DNA of 64,000 nt from Paracyclopina nana (taxonomy: Eukaryota > Arthropoda > Copepoda > Cyclopoida > Cyclopettidae): NCBI GenBank assembly GCA_019096065.1, contig JAGUCH010000003.1:310001-374000 (forward strand), in the 5' to 3' direction. Shown here one piece after another: positions 36,619 to 57,124 of this stretch. Position 1 is the stretch's first letter, and each line of letters starts with the position of its first letter. Under the pieces are notes generated by a model. That model was given only the letters and a program-made list of their open reading frames with translations, did not search any database and was not told the DNA's origin. A program made the translations under genes and the position numbers.

Positions 36619-37113
36619 AAATAGACCAAGTTCTAGCTTATATTGGCAATTCTCGTTTTGGCGTCTGTCTCTGACAAAACAATCCTGCTCGGGGAGAAGA
36701 ACTTGTCGACCTATGCGGCATATCCGCTTTTGTCCACGGTGGTCATTTTGAGCAGACAGTGAGCCAATTCGCGAGCAACCAGCTTGATCATTTCCAAGCC
36801 ATTTTCGTCATAGCATTATTTGCCATGTCATTTGGAGTTATGTCAACAAAGTGGCTGGCAGCAATTTGGGGCGTCAGGAGATCAAGTTCCTCACCGCGAA
36901 AAACCCAGGCGAGTTTGCCCACTGGAGCATTCTCATTTGAAAATAGACTTAGCTTCTAGCTTATATTGGCAATTCTCGTTTTGACGTCTGTCTCTGACAA
37001 AACAATCCCGCTCGGGGAGAAGAACTTGTCGACGTATGCGGCATATCCGCTTTTGTCCACGTTGGTCATTTTGAGCAGACAGTGAGTCAGTTCACGAGCG
37101 ACCAACTTGAACA
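36470..37113. repeat. 322-bp tandem duplication over DAP3 and RECQL5 3' ends
   Basis: DAP3 exon 6 (36516-36618) reappears at 36838-36940 and the RECQL5 C-terminal codons (from 36956 up to about 37113) reappear at about 36636-36790, each with an offset of 322 bp. The copies differ by a few percent. In the second DAP3 copy the reading frame is intact, with one D-to-N and one F-to-I change, and is preceded by an AG. Confidence 0.92.
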
Positions 37114-40100
37114 TTTCCTTGCTGCCAATGGATCCCTTTTTGAAATGAGGCACAAGCAGTTTGACCAAAAGATCCGCAGTCTCCATCTTGGCCTTTTTGT
37201 CCAATTTCTCATGCTGCTTGCTGACTTCATCATTGGGATCTTTGCTCTTGTGCTTCGATGTGCTAATCCTAGGTTTGTGAGGGCTCTCTCTTTTCTTATG
37301 AGGACTTGAACTCTCTCGTTGCTTATGAGGACTTGAACTCTCTCTTTTCTTGTGAGGACTTTCTTTCTTGGTAAAGGAAATCTGACCATGGTTACTTTTG
37401 TGGGGACTATTCTTATTGCCTGAGGTTTTAAGTAGGTTAGGTTTGGCCTCGCCAACTTCCACGCGAATTTTGATCTTTTTCTTGTCGGGTGGCGAGACTT
37501 TGCGAGGTGGCTTGAACGCCTTGTCAGGCTTCTTCTTTTCGGGAGTCTTTTGCTTCACCTTGAGCCTGTTGAGCCTCTCTTCCTGCTTCTTCTGCTCCTC
37601 CTCCTTTTTTCGCATTTTCAGCTCGAACGCGATGTGGTCGTTGCCCTCGGCCATTTGCTGCTGCAAACTCTTGATCGTCTCCTCCAGTTTGGCCACCTTT
37701 TCAGCAGTATCCTCTTCCTCCTCTTCTGCCTGGTCAGGCAGCTCATCGGGGTGATGCTCCGGCTCTGCTTCCTTGTCAATCATCTCTGTAGGCTTTTCAT
37801 CGGGCTCGGGCGAAGAGCTCGTTTCGCTTCCCTTGGCATCCAGATCTTCAACATCATCCTCTTCGTCGTCATCGCTGAGCCCGAGCATCTTCAGCTTCTC
37901 CTTGGCTTTGGGATCAGCTTCTCCATTTTGGATCCGTTCCTCTTCCAACTTTTTCGATAACTGGAGTGCAGTCTGAAAACCTGTCTTGACCTCGACTTTC
38001 TCTACAGTAGGTTCTTGTGGACTATCATGGACTGGAGGTGAGCACGCGTTCAGCACGACAGGGTGGACTTTCCACGCGTCAGTCTTGCCCTTGATCTCGG
38101 CCATCAGAAAGGCCATTCCGCGTCGGTACATGGTGACAACCTTGTTTTTCGTAAAGATCTTGTACTCCTCCTCAATGGCCAGGCTCTGAATGTCCAACGA
38201 GGCGAGCTTCTGCCCCTGTTCGTTGTCGCCGGATTTCTCGAAGGCGTCGTAGTTATTTCTGATGACGTTCTCGAGCAGGGCCAAGTAGCTTTCACGCTGC
38301 GACACTTCCAGCCCGGAGATCTTCTTGGTGGTGAACTCGGCTCCCCTGACCTTGGCACATCGCAGCGCCTCCTTCTCCTCCTTTTTCTTCTCCTTCTCCT
38401 TCTCCAGCTGCTGCTCCCGATTCAAGTTGCCCTTCCTCTTCTTGAACTCGCTCCGGATCAGAGCTTCTCGCTCTTGCTTGGCCCTTTTAGCCGCGGCCTC
38501 CTCGAAGCTGCTCCCATCTGCGTCGTCGTTGTCAACCATGTCCTCAAAGGAGCGCTTCTTCGACCCTCCCTTGCCACCTTCGTAGAGATCCGTGTCGAGA
38601 TCGCAGTCCCCGTTGGTGATGACCAGTCCGGAGGAGCCGTAATTGCCGCTCGCTTTCGACACGAGGAAATCCGTGTAGACTTTCAGCTTTTTCTCCGCCT
38701 CTTTGGGGTTCGCGCACACGTCGCATTTATCCTCGCAAGGATAAACTTTGTCGCCGAAGAACTCACTGAACACTCCGTGTCGACACCGGTTCGCCGACTC
38801 GCAATACTTGATCATCGTCTGGAAGCTCTTGATCGTCGTCTTCACCTGCTGCTTCTTCTTCTCGGTTTTGGCCTTGGCCAGCTCCTTCTTGAGCAGAAAG
38901 GTCATCGTTTCGCGCTCCTGCCGCGTGTAGTAAATGCGGCACTTGGCGGGGAACCCGTCTCGACCCGCCCGACCCGATTCTTGGTAGTAGCCGGCGACAC
39001 TTTGGGGAGCACACCAGTGCACGACGAACCTCACGGGGCCTTTGTCGACGCCCATGCCGAAGGAGATGGTGGCCACAATCACGGCCACTTTGCCGCTCAT
39101 CCACTCGTCCTGGACTTGCGACCGCTCAGAGTCCTTGAGGCCAGCGTGATACGCCTTGGTGTGGATGCCGCGTTTCTCCATTTGGTAGGCCAACTCCTCG
39201 GTGCCGTCTCGTGTGCGGCAGTAAATGATTCCACAGCCGCTCTGCGGCGTCCTCTCATCGCCAAGATCATCTCCGAGGCAAGACTCGATGAATTCCTTCA
39301 GATCGTCAAATTCTTCGTGGCCATGGAAGGCGTCGCTGTAGATCACGTCGTAGTACAGGTTGGACCGAAAGCAGGGAGTCTTGAACTTTTTAAAGTTCTG
39401 CCCGAACTTGAGGCTTTTGATGACGTCCTCGACGACAGCGGCCGAGGCTGTCGCCGTGAGGGCTGCCCAGGGCACCTTTTTGGTGATGGCCCTCAGCTTG
39501 CCGAGTTTCAGGTAGTCTGGACGGAAGTCGTGGCCCCAGGCCGACACGCAGTGCGCCTCGTCGACCACGAAGTAGGCGAGCTTGTCGTACTTCACCAGGT
39601 TCTCGAGAACGTTCTTGAACGTGCTCGTGGCACACTGCTCCGGAGTCACGTATAAAAACCTCGTGTTGGGCACTACGCAGCTCAGATCAGCCAGCACGCG
39701 TTTCCTCTCCTTGTCACCTGGCAATAATATTAAGGATTAACTTCTTTTAAAGGTAAATTAGTGAAGCATACCCTGCTTGGAGTTGATGGTGTTGGCAGTG
39801 ATGGGAATCTGCCGTAAGTGGTCGATTTGGTCGCGAATCAGAGCGATGAGAGGTGACACGACAACTGTCACTTTTCGCTCGGCCATCGCTCCGGGAAGCT
39901 GGAAAATGAGCGACTTTCCCGACCCGGTCGGCATCGACACGAACACGTCGTACTCCCCGGTCAACAGGCACGAAATGGCGGCCTTCTGGAAGGCCGAGCG
40001 AAACCCGTTGTGGCCAAATTTCCGCTTGAGAATGCTGAGCAAAAGTCCCTCGTCGATGGCGGCGTAGGGATTTTTGGCCGCCGAGGGCTTTTTCTCCTCA

Positions 40101-55009: not shown

Positions 55010-55652
55010 ATTTGTCTGAACTTTCTTCAACTATTTTTTCTGCCTATGTGGAATGCAAAAGCTTTGTTTTGATTTTGCTCACTTTCCTTCTGTCTCAGCT
55101 GAAGGGTTGAGCCGACCAAATTAAGGCATGAAAAGATGCTACAAATTGAGATATTGAGGAAAGCCTTTCAGCCTAAGGCTGGGTAATGAAAGAATTATGT
55201 ATGCAGTTTACTCAACTGTTGGTAAATTAAAGTAATTTACGTCTTTACGTCACGAAACTCTAAGACTATGAAAACATTTTTGGTGATCGCTGACAGTTCG
55301 GTTGACAGGCTCCACTTTCAAACTGATAACACAAACTGAGCTAAAACTGAGACTAACAAAAAAACAGGCTCAGTAATCATAAGACTCAGTACTGACTACT
55401 AAGTTAAATAGCTAACTGAGTGAATGTCAGCTATTTTTCGGAACTCAGCACTGCACTGTCAATGAGATATGAGAAATCAAGTCAAGCAAATTCAATGCAA
55501 TCAGTGATTTATTTAACTTAGAGACAACTTTTGGCGTATTCAGAGAGCCTCAACAACACCAACACACATTTACAGGAGTTTTTCACAAAAGTTGGAAAGC
55601 AAATCTGCTTATAAATTGGGCCGCACCATCTGTCCACCAAAAAACTAGAAAA

Positions 55653-56066
55653 TTAGAGCCTTCCCCATTGGTATTGGTTCCTCCTCATTCTGGACCATTG
55701 GTAATTATGACCTTGTTGACCAGCCTTTTTCAGCCTAGACCACATGTAGTTTTTGGGAGCATCAGATTCTTTGTCTTTCTTCCTTCTTCCCAACCAGGGT
55801 TGGTAGCCTTGATCCTCCCTCTTTTTACCTGTCCATGGCTGATATCCAGACCTTCTTTCAAGCTCAATGGCTTCAGGAATCATATAGAGGTCAAAGTCAT
55901 CCCCAACAACTTCCAAGCCTGGCTCAGCTCTCTCCTCATGCAAGTCTTAAATATGCAATACTTTTTTATGATTGCCAAAATGATTGACCATAGTCTACTT
56001 ACTTTGCTGGCATGTGGTCAAAGTGGCCAAAAACAAAAAGGTGATAACTGCTGGTAGTAGTGACAT
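55653..56066 (-). CDS. Putative multi-peptide neuropeptide precursor
   Basis: Two coding exons, 56066-56003 and 55945-55653, join in phase to give 118 residues. Residues 1-19 (MSLLPAVITFLFLATLTTC) are a signal peptide. After an acidic spacer (22-51) come basic cleavage sites that free five short peptides: SGYQPWTG (then KKR), EDQGYQPWLG (then RRKK), a segment ending NYMWSRL (then KK), a segment ending NYQWSRM (then RR), and the C-terminal NQYQWGRL. The first two end in Gly before the basic site and would be C-terminally amidated. The shared Y-x-(P)-W core repeated five times is the hallmark of a peptide precursor. I do not recognise the family; the YQPW core is faintly kinin-like but lacks the WG-amide end. 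A TATA box and a noncoding 5' exon support expression. Divergent from CutC. Confidence 0.85.
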
Positions 56067-56185
56067 CACTGAAAAAGATAAACCCATTTTAACAAAAAAT
56101 TATCTAAGTTAAAAATTATTCTTTGCTACCTCCTGTTGTGAATTGGTCTGGTTGACTGATGTGACTTTTCCCCATCATGTTTCAC

Positions 56186-56193
56186 CTTATATA
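56186..56193 (-). promoter_or_regulatory. TATA box of neuropeptide-like gene
   Basis: The minus strand reads GTATATAAGG about 125 bp upstream of the ATG. A likely noncoding first exon ends at a GTAGCA donor near 56128 and the coding exon begins after an AG at 56069-56070. Confidence 0.6.
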
Positions 56194-56282
56194 CTCACAT
56201 TTTTAAGGCTGATCTTAGCCTCTGGGTGTCATTTTGGCCTTCATGCAGTGTAATTATCCCTTGTTAATCTCTCTCTTGCAGG

Positions 56283-57124
56283 ATGAGAAAAGATTGGCCT
56301 CCAATCAAGATGGAAGTCTGTGCAGACAATCTAGAGTCTGTAAAAAATGCTCAAAAGGGAGGAGCTTCAAGGATTGAGCTTTGTTCTGCTCTCTCTGAAG
56401 GAGGATTGACACCTTCTCTTGGCTTTTTTCTCATAGCCAAACAAGTTGCATCCACCATTCCCATATTTTGTATGCTCAGGCCTAGGGGAGGTGACTTTAT
56501 GTATTCACCTGATGAAATTGAGGTAATGGTCAAAGATGCTCAATTGTTTGGTCAAAATGGTGCTTCTGGCCTTGTTCTTGGAGTGCTCAAGTCCAATGGA
56601 AGTTTTGATAGTGCAGCATGCAAGAGGATAATCAATGCAGCTAGTAGCATCAATAGAAGCATGGAGTTTACTTTTCATAGAGCATTTGATGTCATGCAAA
56701 ATCCTTTAGAGTCTGCTGAAGAAATAAGAACATGTGGTTTCTCCAGGATCTTGACAAGTGGACAAGTAATGTGTTAGCTTAGTTTTAAGGTCCTTTTCTA
56801 TGTATTTGATTATTTCAGAAAAAGAATGCTCAATCTGGAATACCTTTGATCAGGGAGCTAGTAAAAAAATTCAAGAATTGCAATTTTCATATTGTTCCTG
56901 GCTGTGGAATCAATGAGGGTAATCTCAAAGAAATCCTTGAAGCCACAGGCGCCGCAGAATTCCATGCCTCTGCCAGATCAATAGTTCAATCAGCCATGGA
57001 GTTCAAAAATGAAAATTGCAGCATGGGCTCAGATAGCTCTGAATACTCTTTGATGGTGACTTCTGAAGAAAAGGTCCATTGTCTCAAAAGTATTTATGAC
57101 CAAGTCAGGCATGAAATAATTTAA
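56283..57124 (+). CDS. CUTC: Copper homeostasis protein CutC
   Basis: Two exons, 56283-56765 and 56819-57124, join in phase to give 262 residues (human 273, E. coli 248). It is a TIM-barrel protein. Recognisable stretches are MEVCADNLESVKNAQKGGASRIELC at the start of the barrel, GGLTPSLG, MLRPRGGDF, FHRAFDV, RILTSGQ and VPGCGIN. CutC binds Cu(I) and is linked to copper tolerance, but the reaction it performs is not settled. An AG just before 56281 suggests an upstream noncoding exon. Its stop codon overlaps that of the minus-strand gene at 57121. Confidence 0.95.

Follow-up and report, generated by a model that had tools for sequence, protein, structure and literature searches.

The minus strand at positions 55653-56066 of the 64,000-nucleotide stretch of Paracyclopina nana DNA analyzed here (the window) is the exact stop-to-start span of a peptide-precursor gene with two coding exons, whose spliced product is a precursor of 118 amino acids. 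With a probability of roughly 85%, we believe that this is an apparently single-copy copepod gene for a secreted multi-peptide precursor of the neuropeptide or peptide-hormone kind, whose products would be released by convertases, partly amidated and active on a G protein-coupled receptor. The assignment as a neuropeptide-type precursor is strongly supported because the predicted protein has dibasic cleavage and amidation sites after a signal-like start and shows cross-species conservation focused on the peptides and their cleavage sites.

The features of the gene are collected in Table 1. A search of the 92-Mb genome with the spliced protein matched both coding exons separately. An acidic spacer lies between the signal-like stretch and the five peptides. 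The preliminary description had proposed a TATA box and a short non-coding first exon. The TATA box is present (TATATAA at 56193, minus strand), and the TCAGT element near it is what we take to be an arthropod initiator-like consensus. The first exon (about 56157-56130) is plausible and stays a prediction, built on a candidate donor GTAGCA with its GT at 56129 and an acceptor that ends at 56069. When the candidate 5' intron is kept, an upstream ATG stands in frame (MGLSFSV-MSLL...), so that the mature peptides are independent of this splice. A CutC-family gene (window 56268-57120, plus strand) starts about 100 bases from the inferred start of the peptide gene in a head-to-head arrangement, and the short intergenic region may therefore be common to both genes.

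Table 1 Features of the peptide-precursor gene in the window
Feature	Position	Strand	Remark
TATA box TATATAA	56187..56193	-	34 bases upstream of TCAGT (start to start)
Initiator-like TCAGT, probable transcription start	56155..56159	-	putative role
Short non-coding first exon (predicted)	about 56130..56157	-	donor after ...CAGGAG, acceptor TTTTTCAG
First coding exon, signal-like MSLLPAVITFLFLATLTTCQQ	56003..56066	-	ATG at 56066
Intron, 57 nt, phase 1, GTAAGT...TTTAAG	55946..56002	-	splice signals
Last coding exon, holding all five peptides and the stop codon	55653..55945	-	spliced reading
Peptide 1, SGYQPWTG, predicted SGYQPWT-NH2	55827..55850	-	then KKR (55818-55826)
Peptide 2, EDQGYQPWLG, predicted EDQGYQPWL-NH2	55788..55817	-	then RRKK (55776-55787)
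Peptide 3, DKESDAPKNYMWSRL (...NYMWSRL), predicted free acid	55731..55775	-	then KK (55725-55730)
Peptide 4, AGQQGHNYQWSRM (ends YQWSRM), predicted free acid	55686..55724	-	then RR (55680-55685)
Peptide 5, NQYQWGRL, predicted free acid, precursor C-terminus	55656..55679	-	then stop
Polyadenylation signal AATAAA	55508..55513	-	sequence match

All five peptides named in the preliminary description were found, and every one of them ends at a run of dibasic residues or at the stop codon. Its two amidation-ready peptides are likewise confirmed, as a Gly precedes the basic site in peptides 1 and 2 (YQPWTG-KKR and YQPWLG-RRKK), and peptides 3-5 have no such terminal Gly. The absence of an amidating Gly from three of five short bioactive peptides is unusual and counts against a neuropeptide. 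The proposed signal peptide agrees with the hydrophobic core at the N-terminus, where the best nine-residue Kyte-Doolittle mean is 2.76, a value that describes hydropathy only.

In the proposed maturation, the signal peptide would be removed and prohormone convertases would cut at KKR, RRKK, KK and RR. The basic residues left by these cuts would be removed by a carboxypeptidase, and peptidyl-glycine amidating monooxygenase would then convert the Gly-ended pieces to [S]GYQPWT-NH2 and [EDQ]GYQPWL-NH2. The remaining three peptides would be freed as acids ending in YMWSRL, YQWSRM and YQWGRL. We infer that the precursor is processed in this way, expressed in neurons and secreted, and that the released peptides have a G protein-coupled receptor.

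Of 14 candidates from a homology search with the precursor, 12 proteins reached E<=10, the lowest value being 3.2e-23. A profile search had 619 candidates, of which 20 proteins reached E<=10; eight of these (P0013-P0020) were new, and the best new homolog, P0013 (E 6.4e-28), is outside the query profile. This profile consisted of 11 rows, from which P0001, whose start resembles a translated sequencing adapter, and P0009 were excluded; P0001/P0002 and P0008/P0009 are near-duplicate pairs. None of the 20 homologs carries an informative name (P0015 is a “hypothetical protein”), and they are probably likewise from copepods. Hydrophobic N-termini with a best 9-mer mean above 2.2 were found in P0002, P0003, P0005, P0011, P0012, P0014, P0015 and P0019. 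P0020 also exceeds 2.2, yet its N-terminus looks truncated, and P0001, P0004, P0006-P0010, P0013 and P0016-P0018 look truncated or are without a signal-like start.

The gene structure and the motifs can be read directly from the sequence, and so can the conservation across 21 precursors, the one in the window included. The amidation motif [YF]xPWxG[KR] occurs in 19 of the 21 and is missing from P0011, whose copies read RPWSPG in place of [YF]xPWxG, and from P0020. All 21 precursors have one or more W-x-[RH]-[LMI] units followed by a dibasic site or by the C-terminal end, and the order of amidated and then acid peptides is the same in the homologs as in the window precursor. YQPWTG or FQPWTG, the type of peptide 1, is present in several homologs, the PWLG of peptide 2 is conserved among them, and so is peptide 3. 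The cores before the amidation Gly in this family include FQPWT, FQPWN, FQPWL, YEPWR, YQPWL, YRPWL and YSPWL. Q104, W105, R107, M108 and R109 of peptide 4 and Y113 and W115 of peptide 5 are invariant in a 13-row alignment. P0015 carries seven acid-type units, four of them MMW[SG]R[LM], where the window precursor has three. The divergent members P0010, P0019 and P0020 carry RFamide-type RFG[KR] peptides such as MSRFGR beside YxW peptides in one precursor.

Mean identity of 10 aligned homologs to the window precursor is 0.72 over the peptides and basic sites (47 residues), against 0.14 over the rest (50 residues) and 0.18 in the signal region (21 residues). The difference between peptides and spacers is in part a product of the search, which picked out homologs by the words they have in common with the window. 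Still, the pattern of 0.72 against 0.14 is the one that selection acting on peptides and cut sites would give. Together with the signal-like start and the dibasic and amidation sites, it upholds the neuropeptide precursor proposed in the preliminary description.

The motifs are also rare by chance. The window holds [YF]xPWxG[KR][KR] twice, WxR[LM] with a dibasic site or the C-terminal end after it three times, and one ORF with at least two of each; for these three counts, 100 first-order Markov surrogates averaged 0.0, 0.73 and 0.0. For TAYNNNCCNTGGNNNGGNMRRMRR there were 2 matches versus 0.00 expected from 100 shuffles. Above all, the 20 homologous proteins with their repeated plan argue that the gene goes beyond chance. 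The pattern [YF]xPWxG was found at 14 places in the 92-Mb, 10-contig genome (reversed control 4), two of which are the peptide gene itself. Seven of the 12 other places were read and gave no paralog, all being short frames without a second motif. Of the remaining five, three are without a dibasic site and two (FVPWCGKK and YLPWCGKR) have Cys at position 5. No second locus for the precursor was found in this genome by protein search and motif patterns.

Searches of Pfam, NCBIfam, PDB and Rfam gave no significant match for the precursor (best PDB E 0.8), and over 11 members Pfam gave only two chance-level matches, in one member each (E 0.12 and 0.19). Seven longer peptide strings were absent from the literature searched, a collection that lacked the main copepod peptidome papers; the four letters YQPW occur in nine papers there, none of them on neuropeptides as judged by title. 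Of 13 signatures of known families, 12 are absent from all 21 precursors, and the RFamide signature occurs in three, the window precursor not among them. The signatures absent from all 21 include the myoinhibitory peptide (AST-B) motif W(x5-8)W-NH2, the pyrokinin end PRL-NH2 (PRLG[KR]), the kinin end FxxW[G/A/S]-NH2, allatostatin A YxFGL-NH2, and the copepod motifs FxGGx-NH2 (FXGGXamide) and DxxRL-NH2 (DXXRLamide, a signature taken from the family name). No strong match to a named neuropeptide family was found among the 20 homologs. All the above agree with the placement in the preliminary description outside the standard families, with myoinhibitory peptides, pyrokinins and kinins as its examples. 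They also favor its view of the precursor as undescribed, in that the Pfam, NCBIfam and PDB searches yielded nothing significant, no homolog has an informative name, and none of the longer strings was found in the literature searched. The family is apparently undescribed, though this is not proven.

The window precursor has likenesses to several known systems. That to pyrokinins and tryptopyrokinins is superficial: YxWSRL ends in R-L behind an aromatic residue, but the family is without PRLG[KR]. As in allatostatin A, amidated repeats with Tyr stand in tandem and are set apart by dibasic sites, but FGLG is not found in the family, and the allatostatin A gene of the genome is a separate locus (C9:2310303-2310656). 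FXGGXamide and DXXRLamide are also neuropeptide precursors reported only from copepods, according to the passages of PMC4696782 and PMC6158917 that cite Christie 2014 for these two copepod-only families. Unlike DXXRLamide, the RL-ending peptides of the window precursor are without amidation. The closest likeness is to the kinins and leucokinins of arthropods and molluscs, which are likewise short amidated peptides with an aromatic-x-Pro-Trp-x-NH2 frame in several copies per precursor. In contrast to these, the present family has Tyr or Phe at position 1, has T, L, R or N in place of G or A at position 5, adds conserved non-amidated YxWxR[LM] peptides in the same precursor, and shows the canonical motif in none of the 21 precursors.

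Recognizable precursors of the allatostatin A, GSEFLamide and FXGGXamide types are found in the same genome, which we count in favor of the neuropeptide reading. They were recovered by repeat queries, for which they served as positive controls. A GSEFLamide precursor with 13 GSEFLGKR copies in one open frame (L005, G000:C6:490359-493520, minus strand 1294-1836) surfaced with the kinin repeat query. An allatostatin A precursor exon with tandem DPYAFGLGKR copies lies in L008 (G000:C9:2308803-2311955, minus strand 1498-1971), and an FXGGXamide-type precursor (GWNSFAGGYGKR, AWNSGFAGGMGKR) in L010 (G000:C9:3626435-3629623, minus strand 1495-2084).

The repeat-type query of the genome found no kinin precursor. 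Motif patterns gave 185 matches for FxxWG (100 listed; reversed control 124), 64 for F-x-[SPA]-W-G with a dibasic site and BCN codons (all listed; control 22), and 27 for the same pattern with Ser as AGY codons (all listed; control 7), nine of the last being one repeated 20-mer. By pattern only, the form with Ala or Ser at position 5 had 7 matches (control 3), no two near each other. We read 34 kinin-like places in context (20 + 6 + 8), comprising all matches from the complete lists whose codons we read as able to encode a dibasic site and a few other FxxWG places. None resembles a secreted precursor and most are short frames; F..WG[KR][KR] is present in 15 of the first 20 and not in the other 5. 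One candidate, L013 (FDSWGKR), was rejected as a kinin, as the motif precedes an RKRR run and looks like the processing site of another protein. L069 (G000:C8:935500-942000) holds three tandem frames with GDRNINxIIxFHSWGNN that are membrane-receptor-like and apparently a local expansion.

The genome contains at least 155 7tm_1 matches (147 of 334 candidates scored). L061 (G000:C5:5109500-5116000, minus strand), a gene with five putative exons, was considered as a kinin receptor for its TM3/TM7 words and rejected, since its named relatives are of the RYamide-receptor type. Its six best matches are P0021 and P0026 (both Tigriopus californicus), P0025 (Lepeophtheirus salmonis), P0023, P0024 and one unnamed protein; P0023 and P0024 are taken to be from Tigriopus by their gene-model prefixes Tk and TCALIF. 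Among the 120 matches listed of 757, the names are mixed, most often RYamide receptor, and others are tachykinin-like 99D, substance-K and neuropeptide Y receptor, and a kinin or leucokinin receptor appears in no printed name. In a tree of 18 rows (L061 plus 17 proteins picked from the 120 so as to cover different groups), L061 and the copepod rows split from all other arthropod rows with support 100/99. Only one Tigriopus pair is resolved on the copepod side, where two rows are long-branched. The relatives and tree position of L061, along with the FXGGXamide-type precursor, make a copepod source of the genome very probable.

Other explanations of the locus differ much in their probability. 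That there is no gene, or that the true product is the overlapping plus-strand frame of 194 amino acids, is hardly credible. The stop-to-stop frame at 55473-56057 is indeed open, but the homologs match the spliced minus-strand product at E down to 3.2e-23, and the promoter, splice and poly(A) signals are all on the minus strand. A secreted Trp/Arg-rich antimicrobial precursor, or a gland-secreted, non-neural one, whose cationic W-R units would act on membranes or as external signals, is somewhat easier to entertain and still improbable. Trp/Arg-rich antimicrobial peptides exist, and W, R, K and Y abound in the C-terminal third of the precursor. However, antimicrobial precursors usually diverge fast, and the window precursor has short units with dibasic convertase sites between them, two amidation Gly residues and units far more conserved than the spacers.

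It is possible, though we would bet against it, that the precursor is the copepod arthropod-kinin (leucokinin) gene, in which the last Gly has become variable, the acid peptides represent additional copies that have degenerated, and the products act via the kinin receptor. To our knowledge, kinin precursors contain nothing comparable to the acid peptides. The amidated units are mostly [YF]xPW[T/L/R/N]-NH2, in the same aromatic-x-Pro-Trp-x-NH2 frame as the lobster kinins quoted from PMC4696782, which include QAFHPWG-, ASFNPWG-, NTFAPWG- and TRFSPWA-amide. These show G or A at position 5, which varies freely in the present family, and F..W[GAS]G[KR] is in none of the 21 precursors. No canonical kinin precursor was found in the genome with the repeat query, the motif patterns and the 34 places read; given this result and the kinin-like frame, the precursor may be a remodeled kinin. 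The patterns could nevertheless miss a kinin gene whose motif is unusual or interrupted by an intron, and their matches exceed the reversed controls (185 vs 124, 64 vs 22, 27 vs 7), though they are scattered. The only receptor followed up, L061, is of the RYamide-receptor type and not of the kinin type. The preliminary description had contrasted the peptides with kinins, which holds for the canonical kinin end; the amidated half is nearer to kinins than it claimed. By the defining C-terminal motif, the family is not a kinin, and its amidated half may have kinin ancestry or kinin-like action. We see about even odds for an unnamed copepod family in which amidated [YF]xPWx-NH2 and YxW[S/G]R[L/M]-OH peptides would come from one precursor, and which would have its own receptor system and derive neither from kinins nor from another named family.

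Copepods are very abundant animals, and most knowledge of their peptide signaling comes from in-silico surveys with known families as the starting point. A conserved precursor outside these families is a candidate regulator of plankton physiology or behavior. If the precursor were a remodeled kinin, a hormone could drop its most constant last residue with the rest of the core kept. A precursor that yields both amidated and free-acid peptides would amount to a structure-activity experiment supplied by evolution.

Elsewhere in the window, the minus strand at 36956-39736 encodes a RecQ helicase with an SRI (Set2 Rpb1 interacting) domain, RECQL5-like in our reading.
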